Shown here in pieces: positions 19,677-38,812 of a stretch of DNA of 64,000 bases (positions within the stretch are counted from its first letter, which is position 1; every line of letters starts with the position of its first letter). A model generated the notes under the pieces. That model did no database searches, was not told where the DNA came from, and saw only the letters and a list, made by a program, of their open reading frames with translations. Source of the stretch: an uncultured Clostridia bacterium (GTDB taxonomy: Bacteria; Bacillota; Clostridia; Christensenellales; Pumilibacteraceae); contig CAMWMF010000004.1 of the NCBI GenBank assembly GCA_947175335.1, forward strand, positions 1-64,000, written 5' to 3'. The position numbers and the translations under genes are program-made.

Positions 19677-20633
19677 GTGAACAAAAAGAGTGAACGCATA
19701 ACCGTAGTATCATATTTTTGTGGTTGCGGCGGGCTTGATTTAGGGTTTCGAGGCAATTTTGTCTATCATGGGCAAAAATATGATAGGTTGCCTTTTGATA
19801 TAATTAGTGCATTTGATTTCAATGAGAAATGTGTTGCGACATATAATAATTACTTTGAACACAAGGCAACAGTTGGTGATTTAGAAAAAATCGATCCAAA
19901 TTCTGTAGTCGGGGCCGATGTGTTGATTGGTGGTTTCCCTTGCCAAGAATTCTCATCATGTGGTCCTTTAGGGGGGCTCGAATCACAGCGCGGACAGCTT
20001 TATAAGGCATTAATTAGATATATGAATGCACATAGACCTAAGGTTGTTGTGGGTGAAAATGTAATCAATCTTGAACGAATGAATAAAGGCGAAGTTTTGA
20101 AAACGATAGTATCAGACTTAGAAGCGCCGGGGTACCGAATTGAAGTTTGGAAAATGTTTGCTCCAGACTATGGTGTTCCGCAAAGACGCACTAGACTTTT
20201 TATTATATGTGTAAGAGATGATTTGAAAGGTTTTCCTAAAAAACCTATAGCTGAATATGTTAATAATCACCATAGTGTCGAATGGGCAATTGGAGATTTA
20301 ATAAATATTGTAGATGAGTCGGTTCCCAATCAAAGCCAATTTTTTGCCGCTTCACGGGCAAGAAAAGGAAATGGACAAGGCGATGAAAACAATATGCGAA
20401 ATAAACCAGCATATACTATTCGCGCAAATCCAAAATCACGCGTTCAATTTCATTATGAATTGGACAGGCGTCTGACCGTTAGAGAGTGTGCAAGAATTCA
20501 AACATTTCCTGATGATTTTACATTTGGATTCGCAAAGACAACTAGCATATCGCAAATAGGGAATGCTGTACCGCCTATATTAGCGCATACGGTCGCGCAG
20601 GCTATAGCAAATTATTTTCAAGAATTAAAGTAG
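19677..20633 (+). CDS. DNA (cytosine-5) methyltransferase
   Basis: FCGCGGLDLGF (I), GGFPCQEFSS (IV), VVGENV (VI), QIGNAVPP (X). Confidence 0.95.
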   Translation: MNKKSERITVVSYFCGCGGLDLGFRGNFVYHGQKYDRLPFDIISAFDFNEKCVATYNNYFEHKATVGDLEKIDPNSVVGADVLIGGFPCQEFSSCGPLGGLESQRGQLYKALIRYMNAHRPKVVVGENVINLERMNKGEVLKTIVSDLEAPGYRIEVWKMFAPDYGVPQRRTRLFIICVRDDLKGFPKKPIAEYVNNHHSVEWAIGDLINIVDESVPNQSQFFAASRARKGNGQGDENNMRNKPAYTIRANPKSRVQFHYELDRRLTVRECARIQTFPDDFTFGFAKTTSISQIGNAVPPILAHTVAQAIANYFQELK

Positions 20634-20643
20634 GGAGAATAAT

Positions 20644-23031
20644 ATGAGTAACTCTATCATTAGTTTGGATATAACTCCTACACCGCGTATACTCCGCGTG
20701 CTAGGCGAAATCCCTTTTTTGCCGTGGCAATGTTTAGCTGAGTTAATTGACAATTCCGTTGATGCGTTTTTATCTAGCGAGGCTGCTGGCGGAGAAGAAA
20801 GAGAACAACGGATAAATGTTACATGGTCGTCTGATTCAATGGCGGCCAGTGAACGCACAGTTGAAATTAGTGATAATGCTTGTGGAATGAGCTTGGAGCA
20901 AATTCAAAATGCGGTAAGAGCGGGATATTCGAGCAATGATCCTATTAATAATCTTGGCTTGTTCGGGATGGGATTTAATATTTCCACCGCAAGGTTGGGC
21001 GAATTAACGACCGTGCTTTCGACAAGAAAAGGTGATACTGAATGGGTTGGATTAAGAATTGATTTTGCAGCTATGAATGCGGCAAAAACATTTAGTGCAC
21101 CAGTTATACGAAAACCTAAGGACAACCCAAATGAATGTGGCACAAAAATAATTATATCTAAATTGAGGACAGGAATAAGAACAGACTTGTCGATGCGGGA
21201 AAATGATATAAGACGTCAACTTGAATCGATATATACGCCATTATTAAATTCGACGGATATAACAATTTTCGTTAAAGGAAAACAGCTATTTCCTAGAAAT
21301 CATTGCATTTGGTCACCGCAACGGTATGTGATGTACAATGACCAACAAGTTTCGTCATATATAGAAATTGATCGAGATTTAGGTCATTCGTTATTTGATT
21401 TGGAACGTAATACATATTTAACACCAGATATAGCTGAAGATTATTATGCGGCCATGCAAAGAGGAGAACCGCTACCCGATAATATAATAGAGCGTAGTAA
21501 ACGGTTAAAGGGTTGGTTGGGAATTCAAAGATATGCAGATCCGAATGACTTTGGCATTGATTTTATTCGTAATGGAAGAAAAATCTTAATTCTAGACAAG
21601 TCATTATTTCAATATGTCAATCCTTATACTGGACAAAAGGACTTGCAATATCCCGTCGAGTTAGGAACATCGATAGGCGGTAGAATTGTGGGAGAATTAC
21701 ATGTTGATTATTTACTTCCGACTTATCAGAAAAACGATTTTGATAAAACTGACTCATCTTGGTTTCAAACGGTTGAAGCTATATGCGGGACAGGTCCATT
21801 TTTGCCAAAATTGCGAAAAGCAATGGGATTTCAAGAGCCTAACACATCCCCGCTTGGCTTATTGGTAAACGCATATAGAAGAATAGATGCGGGTACAAAG
21901 TGTTTATTTGCCCCTAATGATATATCAAAAAAATATGCTATGCAGTTTAGGCAGGGAAAACGTGATTATATCAATGACGATATTTGGTGGAAGGCGGCGC
22001 AAGAGGAAGACCAACGACGCAGTATAGGCGGTGCAAAAATTACGACGGCAGTGAATGCCGGAGATGCACCATCAGACAGTTTAGAAGACTATTTGGGAGG
22101 AGCTGCAAATACATCTTCAGCTACTACTACGGGAACTGCTTCGGTTACATCGAATGCGAGTGGGAGTCCGACTGTAGTAGCACCGACACCAGTAGAAGAT
22201 ACATCAAAATTGGATGAGTTGATTCAACGTTCAAGCCACGTTGTACAATTGACCGGAAAATATTCGACAAGTGGCGCATTGCCATTAAATGTACGTGTTT
22301 ATGAATTGAAAAATGGGTATGTCCTTTATAAAGGAATGAGAAAGGCTTGTTTTTTCTCTTCGGAAGGAACAGATTGCAACTTTGTATATGATCCAACGCA
22401 TCCGTTGTTATCGCAATATCCTATTACACCAAAAATGTTATTATTACAATATTTATCTGAAAAGCTTAAAGCGCGTGATGGACTATCTGATATAGTGTCT
22501 GTATATAGTGATTTGGTAATTAATTCGATGAATGAATCGAAAATCGATAAGCAATCGCTACAAGATCGTGCAACGAGCGTATTTACAGCTATAAGAGAAA
22601 GGCTATATGGTGCTTTAAAGAACCATGAAATTGAAGCGCTCCAATGTATTCACGAGTCAGTAGGAGAGGTCGAAGAAACAGTTACGCATTTGCTGGCGGT
22701 TTCGCATTTAATAGTACCATTTCAACAGTGTCAAATTGAAGGATTCGACGCTATTGATTACGTTCCCGAAAAAACGATTATACGATTGTTTGATAAATTT
22801 CCGGAGCTTATTTTTGATGGTCATGTTGTTAATGCCCCGTATTTACAAATTGCATTGTCAGATGAAAATGCTACGATTCGCAGTAGAAATGAGTCTAAAG
22901 AAAGAGTGATTTCTTTTCTAAAAGATGCATTGCGATTAAGCAATAATTCACCTATCGGGCAAAAAGAATTGAAAAACGAATTAGCTCGTGCATCGTTAAG
23001 CATTGATTTCCTTATGGGGGAATTGGCGTGA
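20644..23031 (+). CDS. MORC-like GHKL ATPase of a restriction system
   Basis: LAELIDNSVDAF (N box), EISDNACGMS (G1), LGLFGMGFN (G2); follows the MTase by 10 bp. Confidence 0.8.
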   Translation: MSNSIISLDITPTPRILRVLGEIPFLPWQCLAELIDNSVDAFLSSEAAGGEEREQRINVTWSSDSMAASERTVEISDNACGMSLEQIQNAVRAGYSSNDPINNLGLFGMGFNISTARLGELTTVLSTRKGDTEWVGLRIDFAAMNAAKTFSAPVIRKPKDNPNECGTKIIISKLRTGIRTDLSMRENDIRRQLESIYTPLLNSTDITIFVKGKQLFPRNHCIWSPQRYVMYNDQQVSSYIEIDRDLGHSLFDLERNTYLTPDIAEDYYAAMQRGEPLPDNIIERSKRLKGWLGIQRYADPNDFGIDFIRNGRKILILDKSLFQYVNPYTGQKDLQYPVELGTSIGGRIVGELHVDYLLPTYQKNDFDKTDSSWFQTVEAICGTGPFLPKLRKAMGFQEPNTSPLGLLVNAYRRIDAGTKCLFAPNDISKKYAMQFRQGKRDYINDDIWWKAAQEEDQRRSIGGAKITTAVNAGDAPSDSLEDYLGGAANTSSATTTGTASVTSNASGSPTVVAPTPVEDTSKLDELIQRSSHVVQLTGKYSTSGALPLNVRVYELKNGYVLYKGMRKACFFSSEGTDCNFVYDPTHPLLSQYPITPKMLLLQYLSEKLKARDGLSDIVSVYSDLVINSMNESKIDKQSLQDRATSVFTAIRERLYGALKNHEIEALQCIHESVGEVEETVTHLLAVSHLIVPFQQCQIEGFDAIDYVPEKTIIRLFDKFPELIFDGHVVNAPYLQIALSDENATIRSRNESKERVISFLKDALRLSNNSPIGQKELKNELARASLSIDFLMGELA

Positions 23032-24689
23032 GTACATTCTACACTGATGATATTGCAAATGGTTATAACTGGAAAGGCCTTGAAAGAGCGGTTGCTCGGA
23101 TGATGGCTCACATTGGTTGGAAAGATGTGACTGTAATTGGTGGTGCCGGCGATAAAGGTGGTGATATTCTAGGAACACGAGATGGCGACGGATGTACTAA
23201 GGGATGGGTTGTTCAGTCAAAAGCGGTGTCGGGGGATCGGTATATTGGACCTAGTGCTATTAACGAAGTAATAAATGCCCTAACATTTTATAATACAAAT
23301 GTTGCTGCTGTTGCTACGAATGGAGAATTTACTCACACAGCAATCGAGCGTCAAAAACAGCTTGAAAGAAATGGGTACACATTGAAACTTTGGAATGGCT
23401 CATTTATAAAATCGCTTATTGAAAGAATGCCAAGTGAACACGCAGGACATCGGAGTTTACGTCCTTATCAACAGTTAATTGTTGATAAAGTAACGAAGGC
23501 TTTTGATGATGGGCAGAAAAGGGCATTTTATATAGTAGCAACAGGGCTTGGAAAAACAGTTATAGCAGCAACTATAGCACGAAATTTATGGGAGCGTGGT
23601 TGCCGTAAAATACTTGTTCTATGTCATGCAACCGATTTGGCAATTCAATTAGAATCTGGTTTTTGGCCGCAAATCATGAAAGAAGTCCCTACATCAGTTT
23701 TTTTTAATGGATTGCCGCCAAGAAATTCCGAAGGGATTTCTTTTGGTTTATATCAAAGTTTGTATGGTTATTTGTCTGGCATTGAGCCTAATCAATTTGA
23801 TGTTGTAATAGTTGACGAGGCGCATCATGCTATGGCGCATGGCTTCCGTACTTGTATAAACCACCTTAAACCTCGTTTTTTAATGGGGATGACGGCAACT
23901 CCATGGCGTGGCGATGGACAAAATTTAGAGTCGATTTTTGGTGTTCCATTGGAAAAGGTTTCGCTTGTTGATGGAATGGCAATGGGATATTTATCTAAAG
24001 TCGACTATCGTATTTTCTGCGATAATGTTGATTGGAAAAAAATCCCGTATATGAGCAAGAAAAGTTTTTCGATTAAAGATCTAAATAAGCGTTTGTTCTT
24101 GCCGCAAAGGGACGAGGCCGTAATTAGTGAAATTCATAAAACAATTCAAAATATTTCTATTCCTAAAATAGCTATTTTTTCTCCGTCAATTGAACATTGC
24201 CAAAGATTTGCGGATATGTTGTCCGCAAGCGGGATTCCTTGTGTATCATTATCGTGTCCTGATAAATCGGAGCGCAGAAAAAGACTACTTGCCTTTTCAA
24301 CGGGGAGTGTTTCGGCTCTTACTGCGGTCGATGTAATGAATGAAGGAATAGACATTCCTGATGTTAATGTGCTTGTTTTCCTAAGAGCAACTCATTCGAG
24401 AAGGATATTCGTACAACAACTTGGGCGTGGGTTGAGATTATCAAGCGGTAAAGAAAAGGTCATTGTTTTGGATTTTGTTTCAGATATTAGGCGAATGGCT
24501 GATGTAATAGAAATGAATAATGAGGGAAAAGAGAAAGGACGAGAAAAAGAGGTACTGTATCTACAAAAAGGTTTTGTTTCTTTCTCAGACGCGAGAATGG
24601 AAAAATTTGTGCAAGTATGGTTAGAGGATGTCGCAGATTTAGGCGATTCCAATGATGAAACGAAATTAAATTTTCCTGAGGGCTTTTAA
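23028..24689 (+). CDS. Mrr-type endonuclease domain fused to SF2 (DEAH) helicase
   Basis: GAGDKGGDILG...WVVQSKA (D...QxK nuclease core); VATGLGKTVIAA, DEAHH, MTATPWR, QQLGRGLR; overlaps upstream stop. Confidence 0.85.
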   Translation: MSTFYTDDIANGYNWKGLERAVARMMAHIGWKDVTVIGGAGDKGGDILGTRDGDGCTKGWVVQSKAVSGDRYIGPSAINEVINALTFYNTNVAAVATNGEFTHTAIERQKQLERNGYTLKLWNGSFIKSLIERMPSEHAGHRSLRPYQQLIVDKVTKAFDDGQKRAFYIVATGLGKTVIAATIARNLWERGCRKILVLCHATDLAIQLESGFWPQIMKEVPTSVFFNGLPPRNSEGISFGLYQSLYGYLSGIEPNQFDVVIVDEAHHAMAHGFRTCINHLKPRFLMGMTATPWRGDGQNLESIFGVPLEKVSLVDGMAMGYLSKVDYRIFCDNVDWKKIPYMSKKSFSIKDLNKRLFLPQRDEAVISEIHKTIQNISIPKIAIFSPSIEHCQRFADMLSASGIPCVSLSCPDKSERRKRLLAFSTGSVSALTAVDVMNEGIDIPDVNVLVFLRATHSRRIFVQQLGRGLRLSSGKEKVIVLDFVSDIRRMADVIEMNNEGKEKGREKEVLYLQKGFVSFSDARMEKFVQVWLEDVADLGDSNDETKLNFPEGF

Positions 24690-24690
24690 T

Positions 24691-25257
24691 ATGTCAAATA
24701 AATTACCCAAAGATATAGCTGAAAGTATTCGAACAAAGATATATTCTCGTGCCGACGAGTTTGGGTATGCCGGGCGAAGCAGAACGGAGAATAGCCAGTT
24801 TATGGACGACCTTATAGACGATCCTACGATTGGTGGAGTTCTGAAGTTATATTATCCATCAGAACGTATTCGCACTTACATAAAAGATGCTGTGCTCAAT
24901 TCTTATACTAAATCACGGAACAGGGCTTTGTTAGCAATTCAAGATTTAACGTTGGTATTGCATTCAGTTTTTGGAGTTGAGTCAAGCGAGATACAAAAAC
25001 TCACAAATGATACGTTGCTTTATGGCACTGATGATGATACGCTTATAATAGTTAGTAAGGGCACATATGTTAAATGGGAAACTGCATTAAGAAGAGCGTT
25101 AGAAACCATAGCAAAATCTCCCATACTTAGAGAAAGAGAGAAACAGCCATTAATTTGTTTATTGCTCGCGATTTCTAATGGTGAAGCAACTGAAGCAGAT
25201 AAGGACTTCATTAAAAGCGAATTGTCTGTGATTGGCGTTGGCGTCTATTTTTGTTGA
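24691..25257 (+). CDS. Hypothetical protein of restriction cluster
   Basis: 188 aa; starts 2 bp after the helicase gene. Confidence 0.7.
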   Translation: MSNKLPKDIAESIRTKIYSRADEFGYAGRSRTENSQFMDDLIDDPTIGGVLKLYYPSERIRTYIKDAVLNSYTKSRNRALLAIQDLTLVLHSVFGVESSEIQKLTNDTLLYGTDDDTLIIVSKGTYVKWETALRRALETIAKSPILREREKQPLICLLLAISNGEATEADKDFIKSELSVIGVGVYFC

Positions 25258-26359: not shown

Positions 26360-27313
26360 ATGCAATACAAAGATTGGTTAAATGAATGGCTTGAATGTTA
26401 TGTAAAGCCGTCGTCTAAACAGAAAACTTACATACGATACTCTGAAATAGTATCTCAACACATTATCAGCGCACTCGGTGATTACGATATGAACGAAATC
26501 ACACCGCTCATATTGCAACGCTTTACAACCGAACTTTTGCAATCTGGCAATATAAAGACAAAGAAAGGTTTGTCGGCAAATTCAGTAAACGGCATAATAA
26601 CCGTAATTCAAAACTCGTTGAAAGCGGCTTATGCTATAGGGCAAATCAAGGAATACTCGGCAAACAAAATAAAGCGCCCGAAAGCGCGAGAAAAGCAGGT
26701 TACTTGTTTTACGCCTACCGAACAAAAACAAATAGAGCAAGCTGTCTTTAACGGAAAGAAGCCTAAAATGTTTGGTGTGGTGTTGTGCCTATATACCGGC
26801 TTGCGTATCGGCGAATTGCTTGCTTTGGAGTGGAAAGACGTAGACTTTCAAAAGGGTACTATTAACGTGTGCAAATCATGCCACGACGGAAAAGACGATG
26901 GTGGTAAGTTTGCTCGAATAACCGATACGCCGAAAACTGAAACGTCACAAAGAGTTATTCCATTCCCGAAGCAACTTATACCGTATTTGCGGAACTTAAA
27001 GAAGGATACAAACTCCGAATATGTGGTTGCGTCCAATTCGGACAAGCTCATATCCGTAAGGGCTTATCAGCGAAGTTTTGAATTGTTCTTAAAGCGATTA
27101 AATATTCCGCATAAAGGCTTTCACTCGCTGCGCCATACTTTCGCTACTCGTGCGCTCGAATGCGGAATGGACGTTAAAACACTATCTGAAATACTCGGTC
27201 ATAAAAATGCCAATGTTACGCTCAATAGATATGTACATAGCCTAATGGATCATAAGCGCGATATGATGAACAGGTTAGGAAAAATGATAGAAAAAAATGA
27301 CTCAAAGAATTGA
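26360..27313 (+). CDS. Tyrosine recombinase/integrase
   Basis: SAM-like N-terminus; TGLRIGELLALEW (Arg), FHSLRHTFATR (HxxR), GHKNANVTLNRYVH (Tyr); RBS aaggag. Confidence 0.93.
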   Translation: MQYKDWLNEWLECYVKPSSKQKTYIRYSEIVSQHIISALGDYDMNEITPLILQRFTTELLQSGNIKTKKGLSANSVNGIITVIQNSLKAAYAIGQIKEYSANKIKRPKAREKQVTCFTPTEQKQIEQAVFNGKKPKMFGVVLCLYTGLRIGELLALEWKDVDFQKGTINVCKSCHDGKDDGGKFARITDTPKTETSQRVIPFPKQLIPYLRNLKKDTNSEYVVASNSDKLISVRAYQRSFELFLKRLNIPHKGFHSLRHTFATRALECGMDVKTLSEILGHKNANVTLNRYVHSLMDHKRDMMNRLGKMIEKNDSKN

Positions 27314-27318
27314 GCCAT

Positions 27319-27334
27319 CTATTGTTGTAATAGG
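27319..27334 (+). repeat. Invertible switch 1, left inverted repeat
   Basis: ctattgttgtaatagg; exact reverse complement of 27446-27461. Confidence 0.85.
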
Positions 27335-27350
27335 CGATTTGAATACGTAT

Positions 27351-27379
27351 ATATTAGCATATTATGCAATCAAAGTCAA
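27351..27379 (-). promoter_or_regulatory. Sigma-A promoter inside invertible switch 1 (OFF orientation)
   Basis: Minus strand TTGACT-N17-TAATAT; -35 at 27374-27379, -10 at 27351-27356. Confidence 0.8.
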
Positions 27380-27445
27380 TAGTTAAGTGCGGATATTTTT
27401 ACTATACTACTGTTTTTAGGTGTACTAAAATACTAATTTTGTTCA

Positions 27446-27461
27446 CCTATTACAACAATAG
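27446..27461 (+). repeat. Invertible switch 1, right inverted repeat
   Basis: cctattacaacaatag, inside the 27-bp palindrome gttcacctatt-acaac-aataggtgaac (27441-27467). Confidence 0.85.
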
Positions 27462-27962
27462 GTGAACAAAACGGAGTATAAATTATCTGCTATTATGTTA
27501 GATATATACCGTGTTTCATTTATAGGACATAGAGAAGTTGATGATTTTATCTTTGTCGAAGAACAGGTATTTTCCGTTGTCAGCGAGTTGATAAGGACGA
27601 AAGAATACGTTGAGTTCTATGTCGGTCGTAATGGCGAATTTGATACCCTTGTCGCTTCCGTTATAAAACGTGCAAAGCGAGAGTTGGGAGAGCATAATAG
27701 CTCGCTAATCCTTGTCGTACCGTATCTGGTTGCGGAAATGGAATCGTATGAAAATTACTATGACGAGGTGGAGTATCCCCAAGAGCTTCATATGGTGCAT
27801 TACAAGTCCGCAATCACAAAACGTAATGAATGGCTTGTAAATAAATCCGATATGCTCGTAGCCTATGTTACACATGAGTATGGTGGCGCAGCACAGTGCT
27901 TGAAAAATGCAATAGTTCGCGGCATTGAAATTCGGCGTGTGGATAGGGCAAGCGTAGAATAA
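27462..27962 (+). CDS. SLOG-superfamily (DUF1273-like) protein
   Basis: FIGHREVDDF, VEFYVGRNGEFDTLVASVIKRAK, LVNKSDMLVAYVTHEYGGAAQCLKNA; GTG start overlaps the IR, real start may be ATG 27494. Confidence 0.7.
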   Translation: MNKTEYKLSAIMLDIYRVSFIGHREVDDFIFVEEQVFSVVSELIRTKEYVEFYVGRNGEFDTLVASVIKRAKRELGEHNSSLILVVPYLVAEMESYENYYDEVEYPQELHMVHYKSAITKRNEWLVNKSDMLVAYVTHEYGGAAQCLKNAIVRGIEIRRVDRASVE

Positions 27963-28134: not shown

Positions 28135-28135
28135 A

Positions 28136-28166
28136 AGGCATCAGAGACTAACTCCGATGCCTTAAC
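28136..28166 (+). terminator. Hairpin terminator ending the SLOG operon
   Basis: aaaggcatcagagactaactccgatgcctt. Confidence 0.6.
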
Positions 28167-28176
28167 TTTGTCTTCT

Positions 28177-28194
28177 ATTACTATAATAGGTGTA
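28177..28194 (+). repeat. Invertible switch 2, left inverted repeat
   Basis: ctattactataataggtg; 17/18 match to the reverse complement of 28310-28327. Confidence 0.85.
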
Positions 28195-28208: not shown

Positions 28209-28237
28209 ATTATACAATCTTTGGTTGAAATAATCAA
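28209..28237 (-). promoter_or_regulatory. Sigma-A promoter inside invertible switch 2 (OFF orientation)
   Basis: Minus strand TTGATT-N17-TATAAT; -35 at 28232-28237, -10 at 28209-28214. Confidence 0.8.
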
Positions 28238-28309: not shown

Positions 28310-28327
28310 CACCTATTATAGTATTAG
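28310..28327 (+). repeat. Invertible switch 2, right inverted repeat
   Basis: cacctattatagtattag. Confidence 0.85.
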
Positions 28328-28374
28328 GTGTGCAGTGCGTATTTTGAATTATCATCTATATGGAGTTGCTTATA

Positions 28375-31300
28375 ATGCAAACAAATGACTATTACAAAAA
28401 ATATAACAAGTTTTTTCAACAGTCTAAGGTTGAGTCTATCGTATCTAATGCCATAAAAGTACCTAGTTCAACTAGCACGCACAATAAATATGCAGCATTA
28501 GAGTCAAAGCAACTGAATGATAGAATCAGGAATTTTAAAGAAGCATTAAAAGATGCAATATCTAGTAATGATGCTTCTTTGTTATACACTTATATAGATG
28601 ATATTAAAGAAATAAGTTCAAGGAATTCAAATGCAGCTCGAATGCTTGTAGAAAATTACTTGCTGAGCTTAGTAACATCAAATAATATTTTTTATACAGA
28701 AGGTGTCGCGCTGGCTTTTTTGAAAAGAATGTGTGTTACTGTTCCTAAAGATGTGTGTATTGAAAAATGTGGAGAATGCTTTGTAACATTTATTAATAGA
28801 TTTGACGAAATGGAACAAAAAAATATTGCTAATCAGTTTCATATGTCTGCTAAACAAGTAGGCGTGTCTGACGCATGGATATTGTTTCGTGGTTTTAGGC
28901 TTAACTTGGGTTGTAGTAAAAACAAGGATTTTACTGACTTAGACAATATTTGTTATATGAATACTGATGAGGGAAAAATCATATATTCTCTAGCTGATGC
29001 GCAACTTCGTGCGTTATTTGAACAACAAGCGAGAAAATACAACGAGCGTATAGATAAAGAAAAAAGAGCTAAGAAAGCAATTGAAGATGCGGAAAGAGAG
29101 AAAAGGCGAAAAGAAGAAGAAGCGGAGAGTGCAAAACGAGAACAAGAAAGAATTGCTCGGCAAAGAAAAGAGGCGCGTAGTGAAGCGCGAGCATTACGAG
29201 CAAAGATTTTCTTTAAGTTTCTTTTTTTATCTTTGCCGCTTGATTTAACTATAGCATTTATCGTGACTAACGTTATGCTTTTGAAAAACGTCAGCCCTGT
29301 TAGTGATTTTTGGTTGGCTATGTATGTGAAGGTTGAGGATGGTGTAATCACATATAGTTCCGGACGAGTAATAGCTGGCATAGTTTTCGCCGGAATATTT
29401 GCGATATTTCAATTAATGTTCCTTATATTAGCAATGAAAGATGATTTTGATCGTTCTTGGTTTGAATATGAACCGGTTAACGTTTTTAGTTTTGTTACTA
29501 TGTTGATCGGTGCTGTTGTAATCGTGGCTATGAATATAGCTGGTGGGGTCTATTGGGGAAGAGCGGCTAGTGGCGATGATTTATTTCATGAAGAACACGT
29601 GTCTAATAGGTGGTCTAGTGATGTGCCTGAAAGATGCATTGTTTATCTAGATGGAAATTATTTATATTTGAGAGATAGTGTTGTTGCAAATATCTTTCGT
29701 TGTGCTGATGGTACAGATATCGTTATTCCTGCTGAGCATCACGGTAATAGTGTTGGTGTTAGCAGTGATGTATTTAAGAATAACGCTATTTCAAAAGTCG
29801 TTTTTCAAGATGGAACAAAAAATATAGGCAATGCTTTTGCTGGTCGTACTGACTTGGTAAGCGTTGAAATTCCTAATACTGTAACAAGTATTGCTGAAGG
29901 AGCTTTTAAAGGATGTACAAGTCTTGTTAGCATAAAAATTCCGGCTAGTGTTTCAGAAATTAAGAGAGAAACATTCTCTGGATGTACGTCATTGAGAGAA
30001 GTGATTTTAGAAAGTGGGTTGACTAGCATAGAAGCAGGAGCCTTTATGGGGTGTAGTAGTTTAACCAGCATTGAAATCCCCGATACTGTCAAGATTATTG
30101 GCGGTGCGGCATTTACACAGTGTGTGAATTTAAAGACGGTTAAAATGTCATCAAACATAGAAAGCGTAGGTCTACTTGCTTTTTATGATACAGCCATATA
30201 TAATAATCAAGCAAATTGGACTAGTAAAAAAGGTTTATATCTCGGAACTGTTCTTATAGAGGTTAAAAAGAGTGGTTTTGAATATGAGATAGCTTCCGGA
30301 ACGAGAGTAATAGCGGACGGAGCATTTACTTCATTTACATATATGCATTCGTTGACGATTCCTAATTCTGTGAAATTTATAGGAACGGAAGCATTTAAGA
30401 ATTGCAGTGGTTTGCCGAGCGTAGTAATACCTAATAGTGTTGAGCGAATCGGAAAGGGCGCGTTCTCAGGCTGTGACGATCTTATCATGCTCGGTCTGCC
30501 GTTTGTTGGTGAGACAAGAGCTAGTGAGGATAATAACTATATAGGCTATATCTTTGGTGGGAATTCTTATGGCGATAACATCAATGTTGTACCAAAATCT
30601 CTAATATCAATTGTAATTGGAAGTGGCACAAATATTAGTAATTATGCATTTTATCAATGTGAAAGTTTGCATAGCATTACTTTGCCTAGTAATGTTACAA
30701 GTATTGGAGACCATAGCTTCTATGGGTGTATTGGCTTGACAAGCATTTCGATACCTAGTAATGTAAAGAGCATTGGGCGTGATGCATTTTACGGTTGCAG
30801 TGGGCTAACAAGTATTACTATACCCAACGGAGTCACAAGTATTGGTAGTGAAGTATTCGGCGGTTGTAGAAATATCATTATAAGCTGCGAAGCGTCGTCA
30901 AAACCTAGTGAATGGGATAGTAATTGGAATAGTTCTAATTATCCGGTCGTTTGGAATTGTAATAATAATGATAAAGCTAGCGACGGCTGTGTTTACACCA
31001 TAATAGACGGATTGAGATATACCATAAGTGATGGAGTAGCCACAGTTATCAATAATCCTAGAAACACTAATGAAAGTATAGTTGTTCCTGCTAGTATTAC
31101 ATACAAAAATACTAAATATGATGTAACGGCGATAGGGAAAAATGCTTTTTATAACAACACTAATTTGACAAGCATTACGATACCTAATAGCATTAATAGC
31201 ATTGATAGTAGTGCATTCTCTGGATGTAGTAACATAATCAACGCCGTAATACCTACAAGTGCTATATCGGCTATTCCTAAATCAAAGTTACAAACAGTCG

Positions 31301-32550
31301 TAATCAATGGTGGAACAAGTATTGGGTACCGTGCTTTCTCTTCATGTAGTACCTTAATAAGCATAACTATACCCGAGACAGTTACAAGCATAGAAGAACA
31401 GGCGTTCTATAATTGTAGCAGTTTATTGAGTATAACAATATCCAATACTGTCACTAGCATAGGATATAATGCATTTTACGGGTGTAGCAGTTTAATTATA
31501 TACTGCGAAGTATCTTCTAAACAAAGTGGTTGGAATAATAGTTGGAATTCTTCAAATCGTCCTGTAATTTGGAATTCTAAGAGCAACGATAAGGATGGGG
31601 ATGGCTATGCTTATTCAACAATTGGCGGAATACGATATAGCCTGAAATCCGGAATTGCTTCTATAATTAGACAAGCAAATAATATAAGTGGAAGCATTGA
31701 AATTCCTAATCGCGTTTCATATAAGGGTTCGTATTATGCTGTTACAAGCATAAACAATAGTGCGTTTTATAATTGTAGTGGTATAACAAGTATTTCGATG
31801 CCGACCACCGTGACAAGTATTGGTGACAATGCGTTCCAGAATTGTAGTGGATTGACAAGTATTACGATACCGAATAGTGTAACAAGTGTAGGTACTTATG
31901 CGTTCTCTGGGTGCAGTAGTGCTACAAGCGTTTCTTTATCTACTGCTGTTACAAGTATTAGTAATTATGCATTCGAAAAATGTAGTAGTTTAACAAGTTT
32001 AACTATACCAAACGGTGTTACAAGTATCGGTTATAGTGCTTTTTCTAGTTGTAGCGGAATAACTAGCATTACGATTCCTAATAGTGTAACAAGAATTGAA
32101 ACCTACGCATTCTCTAATTGTAGTGCTATCACAACCGCGAATATTCCTACAATCGCCATATCTACGATTAGTAAATCTAAACTGCAATCGGTTGTGATTA
32201 ATGGTGGCGAAAGTATTGATGGTAGTGCATTCTATAGTTGTAGTAGTTTGACAAGCGTAACAATACAAAGTGGCGTTACGCGCATTGGATATCAAGCTTT
32301 CCGAAATTGCAGTAGCCTAACAAGTATATCAATTCCTAATTCTGTTACTAGTATTGAATATCAGGCGTTCGAGAATTGTAGTAGTCTAACAAAAGTGTCA
32401 ATTCCTAGTAGCGTTTCGAGCATAGGGGAATATGCTTTCCGTGGATGTGATGCCCTAACAATACATTGCGCTGCTTCATCTAAGCCTAGTGGATGGAATA
32501 GCAATTGGAATTATTCTAACTGTCCTGTAATATGGAATAGCAAAAACTAA
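28375..32550 (+). CDS. BspA-like leucine-rich-repeat membrane protein
   Basis: Cytoplasmic N-terminus with charged coiled coil, three TM segments (~aa 285-400), then many LRR_5/BspA repeats (LTSITIPNSVTSIGxxAFxxCSS); RBS GGAG 28362-28365 supports ATG 28375. Confidence 0.88.
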   Translation: MQTNDYYKKYNKFFQQSKVESIVSNAIKVPSSTSTHNKYAALESKQLNDRIRNFKEALKDAISSNDASLLYTYIDDIKEISSRNSNAARMLVENYLLSLVTSNNIFYTEGVALAFLKRMCVTVPKDVCIEKCGECFVTFINRFDEMEQKNIANQFHMSAKQVGVSDAWILFRGFRLNLGCSKNKDFTDLDNICYMNTDEGKIIYSLADAQLRALFEQQARKYNERIDKEKRAKKAIEDAEREKRRKEEEAESAKREQERIARQRKEARSEARALRAKIFFKFLFLSLPLDLTIAFIVTNVMLLKNVSPVSDFWLAMYVKVEDGVITYSSGRVIAGIVFAGIFAIFQLMFLILAMKDDFDRSWFEYEPVNVFSFVTMLIGAVVIVAMNIAGGVYWGRAASGDDLFHEEHVSNRWSSDVPERCIVYLDGNYLYLRDSVVANIFRCADGTDIVIPAEHHGNSVGVSSDVFKNNAISKVVFQDGTKNIGNAFAGRTDLVSVEIPNTVTSIAEGAFKGCTSLVSIKIPASVSEIKRETFSGCTSLREVILESGLTSIEAGAFMGCSSLTSIEIPDTVKIIGGAAFTQCVNLKTVKMSSNIESVGLLAFYDTAIYNNQANWTSKKGLYLGTVLIEVKKSGFEYEIASGTRVIADGAFTSFTYMHSLTIPNSVKFIGTEAFKNCSGLPSVVIPNSVERIGKGAFSGCDDLIMLGLPFVGETRASEDNNYIGYIFGGNSYGDNINVVPKSLISIVIGSGTNISNYAFYQCESLHSITLPSNVTSIGDHSFYGCIGLTSISIPSNVKSIGRDAFYGCSGLTSITIPNGVTSIGSEVFGGCRNIIISCEASSKPSEWDSNWNSSNYPVVWNCNNNDKASDGCVYTIIDGLRYTISDGVATVINNPRNTNESIVVPASITYKNTKYDVTAIGKNAFYNNTNLTSITIPNSINSIDSSAFSGCSNIINAVIPTSAISAIPKSKLQTVVINGGTSIGYRAFSSCSTLISITIPETVTSIEEQAFYNCSSLLSITISNTVTSIGYNAFYGCSSLIIYCEVSSKQSGWNNSWNSSNRPVIWNSKSNDKDGDGYAYSTIGGIRYSLKSGIASIIRQANNISGSIEIPNRVSYKGSYYAVTSINNSAFYNCSGITSISMPTTVTSIGDNAFQNCSGLTSITIPNSVTSVGTYAFSGCSSATSVSLSTAVTSISNYAFEKCSSLTSLTIPNGVTSIGYSAFSSCSGITSITIPNSVTRIETYAFSNCSAITTANIPTIAISTISKSKLQSVVINGGESIDGSAFYSCSSLTSVTIQSGVTRIGYQAFRNCSSLTSISIPNSVTSIEYQAFENCSSLTKVSIPSSVSSIGEYAFRGCDALTIHCAASSKPSGWNSNWNYSNCPVIWNSKN

Positions 32551-32564
32551 TTAGAGGAGTAATT

Positions 32565-33749
32565 ATGAGCTATATCGAGTCAATTAACGAGAGCTTAACG
32601 CGCTTAAAAAGTACAGAGGCAGAATTGCGTCGTAACTATGATTCCGAAGTAACTGCGGCTAATAATGCATTTGAGTCTGCACAACAAGATCAGTATTATG
32701 ATAAATTTAAGCAATATTGCTTTGACATGAAAAACCAAGTTGGTGATTTCATCAAGTTTATTAAGTCTAAGATTTTATCATTGCCTAATCAGTATTCAAT
32801 TAGAGAATTCGCTGGAACTCTTGACGTTGAAGGCGCGATTGCTAAGTTGGGCATTTTGGAGTATATAGAAAAATTAGTATCAAGATGTAATGACGAAATG
32901 TCGAAAATTAAAGAGCAGTCCACGCCGGAAGAAGATATAAAGGTCATAGAAAAATTAGAAGAATACTATTGTGAAATATGTGTAGTATGCAATCAATTTG
33001 ATGAATTCTATTACGCACACATTCGTACATCAGAAATGGAACAAACAGTAAGCAATGTTCATGATGATGACGTGGGTAAGCTGAAATATGATTTAGATAA
33101 AAAAATATCTGAAGCGACTGAAACAGCTTTAACATCTATATCTGAGCATAGGTCTACATATAAGTCAATTATTGAAAAGCTCGTAGAGGAGAGCTTTGCG
33201 GCACAAATTGGTAAACAACGTATGGGATTCCCAGAGAAAATTTGTTTGGGTAGTATTCTCCATCCTATAATGAATTATCGAAGAGATCTTGTTTCCAACG
33301 CGCTTTCGTGCGGGGATGAAAACGAACTTGAGGTGTTATTTGAAATGCCGTTAGTGGGTAGATTTGATAACTATGATAATGCGAATGCAGTTGCTGCGCC
33401 GACAAAGAAAAAGAATCTCTTTGAACTTTTTGATTTTTTAGACGATTCGGAAGCAGACTCTGATGACGATTCCGAAGAAAAAGATATTGATCCAAAGAGT
33501 CTGACTAACTACAAGGTCGTTTTGGAAGAAATTGGACCTAGTGAAGTAGTTGTTATTTCATTTATTTGTAAGGTAGCAGAAATTAGCTTTGATGAAGCAA
33601 AAAAGCTTATTCAAAGTTTGCCGTCAACAATTAAGGATAAAGTAACTAAAAGTGACGGCGAAGAAATTGCAAATAATTTCAGGAAAATAGGTGCAAAAGC
33701 TGTCGTTAAAGGTAGAGGTCTCTTTGATGACTTTAACTTTGATTTTTAA
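32565..33749 (+). CDS. Coiled-coil protein with ribosomal L7/L12 C-terminal-like domain
   Basis: C-terminus NYKVVLEEIGPSEVVVISFICKVAEISFDEAKKLIQSLPSTIKDKVTKSDGEEIANNFRKIGAKAVVK resembles L7/L12 CTD; RBS gaggag. Confidence 0.7.
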   Translation: MSYIESINESLTRLKSTEAELRRNYDSEVTAANNAFESAQQDQYYDKFKQYCFDMKNQVGDFIKFIKSKILSLPNQYSIREFAGTLDVEGAIAKLGILEYIEKLVSRCNDEMSKIKEQSTPEEDIKVIEKLEEYYCEICVVCNQFDEFYYAHIRTSEMEQTVSNVHDDDVGKLKYDLDKKISEATETALTSISEHRSTYKSIIEKLVEESFAAQIGKQRMGFPEKICLGSILHPIMNYRRDLVSNALSCGDENELEVLFEMPLVGRFDNYDNANAVAAPTKKKNLFELFDFLDDSEADSDDDSEEKDIDPKSLTNYKVVLEEIGPSEVVVISFICKVAEISFDEAKKLIQSLPSTIKDKVTKSDGEEIANNFRKIGAKAVVKGRGLFDDFNFDF

Positions 33750-33762
33750 CTAAGGAGTGATT

Positions 33763-36240
33763 ATGAGTTACGACAATTGTAATGTTGTTATTGACTGGGA
33801 TGGTGAAGGCAAAGCCATATATGACTTAATGGAAAATTGGATCATAAAATTTGCGTCGAGCTTTTCAGTAAGATATATGGAGCTGTTTACATTTCACAAT
33901 GAAACAGGCTCACCATTGGCTGGAATAGTAGGCGAATTAACAAGAGCTATCGGTAGCGAACTTACGCATGGTGGCATTATCTCCAAGTCAAATATTAGTA
34001 AAGAGCTTGAAAATATTTCTACGATAATTAACTCACGTATCTCGGATTACGGAAAGCGGTTTAATAATATCGCAGAATATAATAAAGCGGCTCCTGATAA
34101 TGCTCAGTCGGCTATCTTTTGCGTGATATGTGATTATCCCAATGGATTTAGTGTGGAAAATCAAAAAGAGCTTCTTGGTATAATGAAAGAAGGTAATCGT
34201 TGTGGCGTTTATACGGTGTTAATTCGTAATAGCCGTTTGCCTGCGCCGGGTAGCGAATACGGCAAAAAAGAAGAAATATTGGATTCATTAAGTAATACTT
34301 TTTCCATTAAAGCGGCTAAAAATAAATTTTATATTAATGGGTATGAATATATTTTTAATTTAGGGGGAGGCGATGAGCAGGTCGTAACTGAATTATTGGA
34401 TTCTATTAAAGAAAGTAAAAAGCAAAAATCAGCACCTATTCCTTTACATTCACTTCAATTACCTAAACGAAAGATGGGGAACGATTTTTCGGAGAACTTA
34501 TCTATTCCTGTTGGAAAGGAAGGTTCGCAAGTCCAATGCGTTGAGCTGTCTAATAATGCTACGCATATGCTTGTTGCCGGCATGACTGGTTCTGGTAAAT
34601 CCGTATTCTTGCATACGTTTATTCTGTCAGCTGCCAATGCATATTCGCCATCCGAGCTTGAATTTTACTTGATTGATTTTAAAGATGGTGTTGAGTTTAA
34701 TTTGTATCGTGACGTTCTTAGAATACCGCATGTTAAAATGATTGCCGCTAATAGAAGTGATGTGCAGGTTACTTATGAGATGCTAAAGGCATTATCAGAG
34801 GAGATGACGCGGCGAAACGAAATATTCAAGAGATTGAATGCAGTTAATCTTATTGAGTATAACGAGCGTGTGTTATCAAATGAATATGATAAGAAAAAAT
34901 ATGGAGAGCTTAAGCCTATACCGAGAGCAGTTATTATCATAGACGAATATCAAGATATGTTCTCTGGCAATACATACGCGAATATGTGTGTTGAAGAATT
35001 GACTGATATGGCGAAAAAGGGAAGGAGTGCGGGTATTAGTTTGCTATTGTCTTCGCAAACAGTGCCGTCTAGTGGATTTGGGGACATAAAAGAACAAATC
35101 GCTAATTTTGTACTGTTTAATGCGAGTGAATCTACAATAGATAAGATTATGCCCGGACAAGCAAGGTATCGTAATGACTTGTTGAGAGAAAAAGGTAATG
35201 CGTTTTATGCCACTTTGGGTGCAAAACCTATTCTCTTTAGAGCGGCATATCCCGGCGATAGAAAAGATTTAACCGAAGATGGTTTGTACGCAAATGCCAA
35301 GCGTATTAATTCTAAATACAAAAATGTGTCAAGTGACATTATTATTGCGGGTGATAATTCGGAATTGGAAGTTATGCAATCTAGACTTGGCTTTATAGTA
35401 GGCGATGATATTCCGTTGCCTAGAACAAGTGATAGCGTTGAATTAACGTATGGTCAATCGGGAAGCACGGGCTATCAGCAAACGGTTAAGTTTAAGAGTG
35501 CAACTGCCTTACTACCTTTATTGGGCGATGCTATTCAATCTAAACATATTGAAGCGACACTGCTTTTATCTGCTATGCATGAGCAGATATTGAATAGCAC
35601 AAATGATGAGATTATTTACTTAGATTGCAATCCTGTTAGGCGGCAAAATATAATTACTGCTATTTCGGGTTGTAAAAAATATCAGTACTATTCGGGCGTC
35701 AATGAATGTGTGAAGGTCATACGAGAATTAAAAAACATTGTACGTTCTCGTGCTAATGATGGATTTAATAATAATATCTTTATTTTTGTTCACCGAACAG
35801 CAGCATTATGTGAAGTTGAAGAAGCCGCGGCTACTGTTTCTGGATTAAGTGCGCTTGCGCAAATCGCGGGAAGTCAAAATGCTAATAAGGCGGGCATGAA
35901 TAAAGATATATTGTTAGAGCTTCGTGAAATAATTAAAGACGCTGGACATGCCGGTGTTTATATCGTTGCTCAAGTAGATAATTCAGATGAATATGCCAAA
36001 GTATTTGGAAAGAATAATGTTTGTAGGCATATGTTGTTTGCTTCTGGAGCAGATGCAAGAGTTGCCATTGATGCTTATGTAAATGTTCCCATAAGCAATG
36101 CCGATAAAAATGCTATTTCAAGCGATGATGTTTGTGTGTTGTATACAAGTGGTGAATCATTAAGCAAGGCACGAAAGATTGTGTATGATGATGATTCTGT
36201 TAAGAGTTTGATTAAGAATATTAATGAGGGCAAATTATGA
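33763..36240 (+). CDS. FtsK/SpoIIIE (EssC-like) ATPase
   Basis: AGMTGSGKSVFLHTFILS Walker A, AVIIIDEYQDMF Walker B, SAGISLLLSSQ; second degenerate ATPase-like region; ATG 33763 after aaggag. Confidence 0.85.
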   Translation: MSYDNCNVVIDWDGEGKAIYDLMENWIIKFASSFSVRYMELFTFHNETGSPLAGIVGELTRAIGSELTHGGIISKSNISKELENISTIINSRISDYGKRFNNIAEYNKAAPDNAQSAIFCVICDYPNGFSVENQKELLGIMKEGNRCGVYTVLIRNSRLPAPGSEYGKKEEILDSLSNTFSIKAAKNKFYINGYEYIFNLGGGDEQVVTELLDSIKESKKQKSAPIPLHSLQLPKRKMGNDFSENLSIPVGKEGSQVQCVELSNNATHMLVAGMTGSGKSVFLHTFILSAANAYSPSELEFYLIDFKDGVEFNLYRDVLRIPHVKMIAANRSDVQVTYEMLKALSEEMTRRNEIFKRLNAVNLIEYNERVLSNEYDKKKYGELKPIPRAVIIIDEYQDMFSGNTYANMCVEELTDMAKKGRSAGISLLLSSQTVPSSGFGDIKEQIANFVLFNASESTIDKIMPGQARYRNDLLREKGNAFYATLGAKPILFRAAYPGDRKDLTEDGLYANAKRINSKYKNVSSDIIIAGDNSELEVMQSRLGFIVGDDIPLPRTSDSVELTYGQSGSTGYQQTVKFKSATALLPLLGDAIQSKHIEATLLLSAMHEQILNSTNDEIIYLDCNPVRRQNIITAISGCKKYQYYSGVNECVKVIRELKNIVRSRANDGFNNNIFIFVHRTAALCEVEEAAATVSGLSALAQIAGSQNANKAGMNKDILLELREIIKDAGHAGVYIVAQVDNSDEYAKVFGKNNVCRHMLFASGADARVAIDAYVNVPISNADKNAISSDDVCVLYTSGESLSKARKIVYDDDSVKSLIKNINEGKL

Positions 36241-36515
36241 TAGGTAGGATTGACCTTGAAGCGCTTGAGCAATATAGGGCATTTTTATCAAATTACAGTG
36301 GGGATATTCTTGGCTTAACTAACAGCTGTTTGCAAAAAGCAAACTCTATGAAAGATCAGTGGAATGACTCTCATGTGGATGAAGTGATAAATGAACTTAT
36401 AGAGTTAAAGAACTGTATAGATAAGTTTTCTGGAAACTGTGAACAGTATGGTCATATCTTGCAAGAAATTATAGAACGGTATAGGCTATATCTATCTGGT
36501 CATTTTAGTGGATAA
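36237..36515 (+). CDS. WXG100-like small helical protein
   Basis: 92 aa, helical, QWND turn, overlaps ATPase stop. Confidence 0.55.
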   Translation: MIGRIDLEALEQYRAFLSNYSGDILGLTNSCLQKANSMKDQWNDSHVDEVINELIELKNCIDKFSGNCEQYGHILQEIIERYRLYLSGHFSG

Positions 36516-36525
36516 TGGAGGCACG

Positions 36526-36816
36526 ATGAAAGACGTAATATCTACAAATCCCGAGGTGTTGGCGGAATTTGCTCTTGAACTCGGAAAATATACAGAGGCT
36601 ATGTGTGATAAAGTGGTTGAGCTTCGTAACTATCATGATCGTGCGGCAGAGTATTGGCAAGGCCCACAGTATGACAGCTTAACTGATAGAATTACCCAAA
36701 TGGCCCAGCAAGTTTTGTCTGAGGCGCAAAAGTTGGAAAACCTTAAGAATTTTATTATTCAAAAAGCCTTGGAGCTGGCAAATGCACAAGGTATTCGTTT
36801 CGGTGGTGATGAATGA
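36526..36816 (+). CDS. WXG100-like protein
   Basis: MKDVISTN...AAEYWQGPQYDSLTDRI: W-x-G turn between two helices, ~96 aa; RBS ggagg. Confidence 0.7.
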   Translation: MKDVISTNPEVLAEFALELGKYTEAMCDKVVELRNYHDRAAEYWQGPQYDSLTDRITQMAQQVLSEAQKLENLKNFIIQKALELANAQGIRFGGDE

Positions 36817-37133
36817 AAATTGACTATGCGTGGACGGCTAATGTTTTGATTGAGAGGATAGTATCGGACTCTCAATCTTATCGAACGTGGCTTGATTTTT
36901 ATTGGCGAGATCGAGTTCGTGAAACGCTAGTTAAAAATAGTGAGGCTATTAAAGAAAAAGCTGAAGAACTTCAGGCTGCTTTTAGGGATGTTTATAAACT
37001 GACTGATAAATTTGTTGATTGCTATATTGACGATCTTATTGATTCCGCAAATAAGAATTATTATAATTGCACACAACTTGAATCTGAAATAATGTCATTT
37101 AAGGTGGCAAGCGATGCAATCAGTAAAGTTTGA
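36813..37133 (+). CDS. Small helical protein, WXG100-like
   Basis: 106 aa; FYWRDRVRETL turn-like segment; 4-bp overlap with previous gene. Confidence 0.5.
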   Translation: MKIDYAWTANVLIERIVSDSQSYRTWLDFYWRDRVRETLVKNSEAIKEKAEELQAAFRDVYKLTDKFVDCYIDDLIDSANKNYYNCTQLESEIMSFKVASDAISKV

Positions 37134-38259
37134 TTCCGCCGAGGTCGAAGCTCGACAGGAAAAGTTGCGTGAATATAAATACAATGTTGAAAAAGCGATT
37201 CAAGAACTTGACAGTAATTTACAATCGCTTATTTATGATACGCAAAAAGTTATTGATGACCTGTGTTATAATAGTAACGTTCGCACTTCCGATGATGGTG
37301 CATTGGGCAAAATTAATTATGTACTTAAAAAAATGCCGCAAAGGATTGGTTATATCAATGGAACGATAGCAAGGGTTAGCGGTACACTTATGTATTGGCA
37401 AAATATTGCTGATAAACTGAGTATTGATTTTAAGGTTTTGAATGATGAGATTGGGGCATGGGAAAAGCAGGTAGAAGATATTCGATATGAATTAATGGCG
37501 ATACCGGATGGGTACTGGGAATCAACAACAATAACTTATTCGGATGGTTCTACTAGCGAATCCAGCGAATGGTATGATCCGTGGGAGGGCGAACGAGATA
37601 GTTTGCGGGCTAAAAGAGATAGCATTTATGAATTTCATTTGACTCCACTTAGATCTGAGCGAAACGAAGTACATGGTAAATTGATAGTTGCGCAAACTAA
37701 CTGTTCGATTGCAAGTGGTGATTTAAATAAGTTAAACTCTTTTTTAACTCGCTGTAATAGCATACTTTCTACAGCAAAAAAAGATGATGAGCATATTAAA
37801 AAGACTTTGAAATCGCTATCAGAGATAATAGAGTCGTTAAAGAAATATCGAGAAAAACTTGGAAACTTTAGTGAATCTGTGATGGGACTTATTCAAAAAG
37901 CAGATAAGATTTTAAATAAAGCTTTATCTGCAATAACAGAGTTAATGGCTATTTCACACAAGCATATACCAGATTTTGAGAATCGTCCTATAAAAGTGCA
38001 ATTCGATATAGACGAGTGTAAAAAGTATAAGGTTAATGGTGATGAGTTTAATGAAGAAATTGAGAGCTTGTATAAATATTTAGTAGGAATTATAAGCGGA
38101 ATATCTTCATGGAATGATAATAATAAAAACAAGGCTTCTACGGCTATATTGAGTCATGCTGAAGCTATGAAATCTGTTGTAAATATTTTTGATAATGAAA
38201 TGGATTTTTTGAAAAAGCAAATAAAAATTTTGACTGATTACTATAATGCTATTGAATAG
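37114..38259 (+). CDS. Coiled-coil protein, possible LXG-type secreted substrate or adaptor
   Basis: 381 aa, strongly helical, overlaps previous CDS. Confidence 0.55.
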   Translation: MQSVKFDSAEVEARQEKLREYKYNVEKAIQELDSNLQSLIYDTQKVIDDLCYNSNVRTSDDGALGKINYVLKKMPQRIGYINGTIARVSGTLMYWQNIADKLSIDFKVLNDEIGAWEKQVEDIRYELMAIPDGYWESTTITYSDGSTSESSEWYDPWEGERDSLRAKRDSIYEFHLTPLRSERNEVHGKLIVAQTNCSIASGDLNKLNSFLTRCNSILSTAKKDDEHIKKTLKSLSEIIESLKKYREKLGNFSESVMGLIQKADKILNKALSAITELMAISHKHIPDFENRPIKVQFDIDECKKYKVNGDEFNEEIESLYKYLVGIISGISSWNDNNKNKASTAILSHAEAMKSVVNIFDNEMDFLKKQIKILTDYYNAIE

Positions 38260-38290
38260 TGTTATATTACTAAATATGGAGTTGTAATTT

Positions 38291-38812
38291 ATGAATTCCG
38301 AGTTAAACAATTTTATTAAGAGCCATTTCAGTTTGTTTGAAGATAATCCGGTCAATCAAATCAAGATTGACCATTATTCTTGGTCGGAAAAGTCCATATA
38401 TAGGTATTATGATAAACAGTTGATTAACAGGCGATTGATTAGACAGGTGGAGATCGCCGTTGAGAATGAGTTTCTTAAATGGGACAATGAAGAATCAAAG
38501 CGATTTATGATAGATGGTCTTAGCTTAATGCGCTGTGACAGGAACATTCCGAGTAGTGACGCATGGGAAGATGCTAATGCTTTGGAAAACGCAGCAATCA
38601 AGTCTTTGCAGTCGCTTATTCAAGAAAACGTCGATTTGGATATTATGAGTGCTGTGTGTGAGGTAGAGTGTCAGTTACAAGAAGCAAAAACACAAGAGGA
38701 CATTCGACTTGTGCAAATTTACGAACGCATCTTGTACGAACTTAACGAATGTTCTATGAGAGAGTTTAACGAGCTGAAGATGGCTACATTGGGTGGAATA
38801 GAAAGTTTATGA
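38291..38812 (+). CDS. Hypothetical protein, end of FtsK/WXG operon
   Basis: 173 aa; RBS ggag upstream. Confidence 0.55.
   Translation: MNSELNNFIKSHFSLFEDNPVNQIKIDHYSWSEKSIYRYYDKQLINRRLIRQVEIAVENEFLKWDNEESKRFMIDGLSLMRCDRNIPSSDAWEDANALENAAIKSLQSLIQENVDLDIMSAVCEVECQLQEAKTQEDIRLVQIYERILYELNECSMREFNELKMATLGGIESL

Follow-up and report, generated by a model that had tools for sequence, protein, structure and literature searches.

Short invertible promoters (invertons) close to tyrosine recombinases have already been reported from Clostridia. In a published survey, Clostridial invertons near a tyrosine recombinase appear as inverton group 139, statistically associated with invertase group 35; 32 of the 33 members of group 139 come from Clostridia, and a tyrosine recombinase gene lies no more than 5 kb away (PMC11892184). 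In Clostridioides difficile, a single tyrosine recombinase, RecV, inverts several promoter segments, including those of flg and cmr (PMC8844915, PMC7446863). Given these precedents, the locus described here belongs to an already known kind of switch, of which it is a new example with unusually clear anatomy. It lies at 27319-27461 of a 64,000-nucleotide stretch of DNA from an uncultured Clostridia bacterium (the window). We hold with considerable confidence that this interval is a phase-variable promoter switch (inverton), flipped by the adjacent recombinase and accompanied by a second switch alongside.

A repeat search of the sequence found CTATTGTTGTAATAGG at 27319-27334 on the plus strand and at 27446-27461 on the minus strand, identical at 16/16 positions. 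This confirms the exact inverted repeat enclosing 111 bp that the first-pass annotation had described; the 5-bp distance it gave from the recombinase stop codon to the left repeat likewise agrees with the end of the reading frame at 27313. The best 18-nt window in the region matches at 17/18 positions, where 12 Markov-shuffled versions of the region reached no more than 15/18, and the repeat motif, with no more than one mismatch, occurs 10 times in the window where 1.2 are expected (maximum of 6 across 100 shuffles). Since the real matches outnumber and outscore those of the shuffled copies, the repeat is above chance. Each repeat forms the core of a 21-bp near-palindrome of the form CACCTATT-N5-AATAGGTG, whose 8-bp arms and 5-bp spacer are the layout expected of two recombinase monomers. 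The left site reads CATCTATT-GTTGT-AATAGGCG and the right site, on the opposite strand, CACCTATT-GTTGT-AATAGGTG. In the 1.96-Mb assembly, CACCTATTN5AATAGGTG with up to two mismatches occurs at just four sites, all at this locus and arranged as two inverted pairs; with three mismatches, counts over the whole assembly are no higher than for a reversed control pattern, and are thus at chance level. A search of viral contigs found no copies of the switch. The exact 16-mer is also present at C22:30563, without a partner. The features of the locus are collected in Table 1.

Table 1. Recombinase, switches and proposed target genes, in positions of the window.
Feature	Position	Strand	Description or basis
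Tyrosine recombinase, 317 aa	26360..27313	+	PF00589 (Phage_integrase) 1.5e-29; PF14659 (SAM-like N-terminal domain)
Intrinsic terminator facing the switch 1 promoter in the present orientation, shielding the recombinase	27295..27320	-	Terminator scan; family pattern
Switch 1 left recombination site	27316..27336	+	Core 27319-27334, spacer GTTGT
Switch 1 invertible segment	27335..27445		111 bp
Switch 1 promoter, TTGACT-N17-TAATAT with TGn	27351..27379	-	Points to the recombinase (OFF)
Switch 1 right recombination site	27444..27464	-	Core 27446-27461
SLOG-fold gene, 155 aa, proposed switch 1 target	27495..27962	+	Motifs, predicted model
Terminator between SLOG gene and switch 2	28135..28163	-	Best on minus strand, z -5.0
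Switch 2 left recombination site	28172..28192	+	Spacer ACTAT
Switch 2 promoter, TTGATT-N17-TATAAT	28209..28237	-	Points away from the LRR operon (OFF)
Switch 2 right recombination site	28310..28330	-	Spacer ACTAT
BspA-type LRR protein, first gene of proposed switch 2 operon	28375..32550	+	PF13306 2e-176
Protein with ribosomal L7/L12 C-terminal domain	32565..33749	+	PF00542 8.9e-11
FtsK/SpoIIIE ATPase, EccC/EssC-like	33757..36240	+	PF01580 1.3e-29
Three small helical proteins	36237..37133	+	One with WQG motif, weak WXG100 match
Coiled-coil protein (381 aa) and 173-aa protein, possible operon end	37114..38812	+

The recombinase carries all of its catalytic residues (R149, K192, H255, R258, H281 and Y291). 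Among proteins of solved structure, Int proteins (6en0, 6emz) and XerA come closest to it in sequence, and no close paralogue was found in its own genome. About 50 relatives, at roughly 35-70% identity, are spread across 74 genomes of the same family. Directly upstream, at 19677-25257, lie a C5 DNA methyltransferase, a MORC/HSP90-like ATPase, an Mrr-DEAD helicase and two small genes, which we read as a restriction or defence cluster. At the other end of the window, 38291-64000 holds conjugation-type genes (a relaxase, a VirD4-like protein and a very large helicase-methylase), and a second integrase follows beyond the window at C4:72161; we take these to be an integrative element adjoining the switch cluster.

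The minus-strand TTGACT-N17-TAATAT that had been noted inside the segment is indeed present, at 27379-27351, and has an extended -10 (TGn). A promoter scan of the window alone gave 5 promoter-like matches against 5.9 expected, which is not above chance in this AT-rich stretch. As the match is not significant by itself, it is the family comparison that lends the promoter its support. From the direction of the promoter we infer that switch 1 is currently OFF and that inversion would turn the SLOG gene on; with the promoter of switch 2 also facing away from its genes, both switches appear to be OFF. No plus-strand terminator was found between the recombinase and the SLOG gene, so that some read-through transcription may occur in either state. 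It should also be noted that, while switch 1 is OFF, its right site forms the centre of a 17-pair hairpin (27436-27472) just 5' of the SLOG gene's GGAG; flipping the segment would make this hairpin shorter, which might affect read-through translation.

Switch 2 starts about 710 bp beyond switch 1. Its arms, which are imperfect, are shared with switch 1, while its two spacers match each other and read ACTAT, as against GTTGT. Tyrosine recombinases generally require matching spacers in partner sites. Hence, the difference between GTTGT and ACTAT should separate the two pairs and keep the intervening SLOG gene from being deleted, and with shared arms but different spacers, each pair should flip alone.

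To compare the locus with its relatives, we retrieved the DNA surrounding related recombinases, set it in the direction of the recombinase gene and looked for inverted repeats. Besides the window, 30 loci (L011 and L056 among them, apparently a single contig) have an inverted pair 3' of the recombinase that matches at 15-18 of 18 positions, with shuffles reaching at most 15. The repeats are about 100-190 bp apart and mostly within 110 bp of the recombinase end. Three additional loci, L042, L050 and L069, have their pair farther off, 320-800 bp downstream. Overall, a pair is present in 31 of the 46 loci where the recombinase is intact and sufficient sequence follows it, and no repeat pair was found near the recombinase in the other 15. 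Plasmid-borne relatives (34-36% and 31%; Ruminococcus, Bacteroides, Enterococcus) lack a switch-like pair downstream. Consistent with a recombinase dedicated to its own promoter inverton, an intact enzyme adjoins the sites and the two diverge jointly: site matches between loci average 12/26 at less than 40% recombinase identity and 18.6/26 at more than 70%, and recombinase and site similarity are correlated (Mantel rho 0.48; 0 of 2000 permutations as high).

The annotation had also called for both orientations to be sought in related genomes, and one pair of loci from two species provides them. Both flanks of L065 (G049) and L066 (G052) are nearly identical and the inner segment is reversed, the L065 segment being the reverse complement of the L066 segment except for a 3-bp length difference. 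Their opposite orientations indicate that loci of this type invert in nature. An outward sigma-70-like promoter stands near exactly one segment end in 23 of 29 loci, compared to 1.25 in dinucleotide shuffles; where orientation is clear, 9 loci are ON (toward the next gene) and 12, counting the window, are OFF. The original proposal, a promoter switch inverted by the tyrosine recombinase beside it, is thus well supported by the family. Two further observations concern assembly and site number. The contigs of L045 and L055 stop inside or at the first repeat 3' of the recombinase, as would be expected if assembly broke at a segment of mixed orientation. L083 has three site copies instead of two, at +35, +190 and +238 after the recombinase, and is possibly a nested or three-way switch.

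The genes behind the relatives' switches are diverse. Surface proteins, LRR proteins among them, occur there, as do restriction-modification genes of type IIG and other types, HA-domain helicases, NusG-like proteins, an NRPS and a binding protein. In a Clostridia bin from sheep colon (L010:4001-8912), the recombinase switch stands, OFF, before a non-ribosomal peptide synthetase. In L117 (L117:4659-12750), an FtsK-like ATPase cluster with small helical proteins follows the recombinase and switch, and phase-variable FtsK/WXG-like clusters may therefore be recurring.

The downstream gene had been called SLOG-type, an identity upheld by motif alignment and by structure comparison of the predicted model. 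Translation likely starts at ATG 27495, with a GGAG at 27473 that is distant from it. The alignment displays the motifs FxGHR, GxxGxFD and GGA, and the model (pLDDT 92) has its best PDB matches in DprA, ShosA, the Moco carrier protein and LOG, with the ThsA SLOG domain lower. The predicted fold and the glycine-rich motifs support membership in the SLOG superfamily. The protein, which stands alone with no partner domain, has no Pfam or NCBIfam match. Among the recombinase loci, no SLOG homologue was found behind a switch, and the two closest SLOG homologues have neither a tyrosine recombinase nor a short switch-like repeat pair alongside; the SLOG target is thus not conserved.

For switch 2, we propose that the target is a secretion-like operon combining LRR, FtsK/EssC-like and WXG-like proteins. 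The LRR gene has a GGAG 9 nt 5' of its ATG at 28375. A type VII secretion locus would be expected to pair an EssC/EccC-type ATPase with WXG100 substrates; here the ATPase scores 1.9e-31 against TIGR03924 (EccCa), which is below the NCBIfam cut-off, and the WXG100 match of the small helical protein is likewise below cut-off (E = 0.016). Among the papers searched, none links type VII secretion with both phase variation and DNA inversion.

We next consider other readings of the locus. The first-pass annotation had suggested that the present-orientation promoter yields antisense RNA on the recombinase, feeding back on switching. The promoter does face the 3' end of the recombinase gene; the minus-strand terminator at 27320-27295, however, separates it from nearly all of the coding region, and a minus-strand terminator occupies the same place, between recombinase and segment, in 19 of 28 relatives compared to 1.3 in shuffles (threshold of -8 kcal/mol or better; by a strict count, 10 loci compared to 0.8). 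Plus-strand terminators occur there in 7 of 28 loci, and in several relatives the left recombination site doubles as a terminator hairpin. Because the OFF-state transcript appears to end before most of the recombinase gene, the antisense suggestion is left unsupported and we consider a real switch with such feedback improbable.

We regard it as no less improbable that the switch has become locked or inactive here, this strain carrying a relic segment kept OFF. Such a relic would be in keeping with both switches being OFF in the assembly, with the imperfect arms of switch 2 and with the want of a known inverted copy of the window's switch. An assembly, however, by design displays a single orientation, the recombinase is intact down to every catalytic residue, the switch 1 cores are identical at 16/16 positions and the switch 2 spacers match. 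The conjugation-type genes downstream and the second integrase at C4:72161 raise the suspicion that the recombinase instead serves a mobile element as its integrase, with the repeats acting as attachment-site arms or as binding sites and not as an inversion switch. That element, however, has an integrase of its own; the sites are inverted pairs enclosing a promoter, and relatives carry the recombinase-switch unit beside unrelated genes, with the one inversion seen between L065 and L066. We therefore hold this possibility to be very improbable indeed.

Taken together, these observations favour an invertible promoter switch that would work as follows. The recombinase would bind both 21-bp palindromic sites and flip the 111 bp that they enclose. 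As long as the switch is OFF, the promoter would aim at the recombinase and its transcript would end at the terminator; once inverted to ON, the promoter would drive transcription across the right site and into the SLOG-fold gene. The same recombinase would run switch 2, toggling the LRR / FtsK-EssC-like / WXG-like operon, and the spacer difference would keep the pairs independent and guard the intervening SLOG gene. The window's two segments probably flip, letting cells randomly turn on the SLOG gene and, separately, the secretion-like cluster. A more far-reaching reading combines two propositions: that one recombinase and two spacer-orthogonal switches produce four clonal states (of the SLOG gene and of a WXG-FtsK-type contact/secretion system), and that recombinase, terminator and switch form a plug-in module set in front of numerous unrelated systems (restriction, surface, NRPS, NusG-like, WXG-FtsK) in one Clostridia family. 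We advance this combination tentatively, giving it slightly less than an even chance.

The locus, from an uncultured Clostridia family, presents a compact unit of phase variation in which recombinase, insulating terminator, promoter segment and target gene are adjacent. Since each enzyme adjoins its own sites and diverges jointly with them across a range of 35-70% identity, the family offers ready material for studying site choice by tyrosine recombinases; and since the two switches share their arms but not their spacers, what the spacer does can be tested directly. If true, a phase-variable SLOG gene and WXG-FtsK-like operon would widen the known range of switched functions.

With regard to known systems, the SLOG target resembles the DprA, LOG and ThsA SLOG proteins in its predicted fold and glycine-rich motifs, but unlike them it is a stand-alone protein of 155 aa with no partner domain. 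The recombinase may be likened to RecV, by description and not by sequence, as one enzyme apparently serving several promoter segments; unlike those of RecV, its sites lie less than 1 kb from the enzyme and nowhere else in the genome. The closest counterpart in arrangement, be its recombinase of the same family or another, is inverton group 139, which shares with the locus a short intergenic inverton, a Clostridial host and a tyrosine recombinase nearby (PMC11892184). The window differs in having its repeat 5 bp from the recombinase stop codon, two switches with different spacers and an enzyme insulated by terminators.
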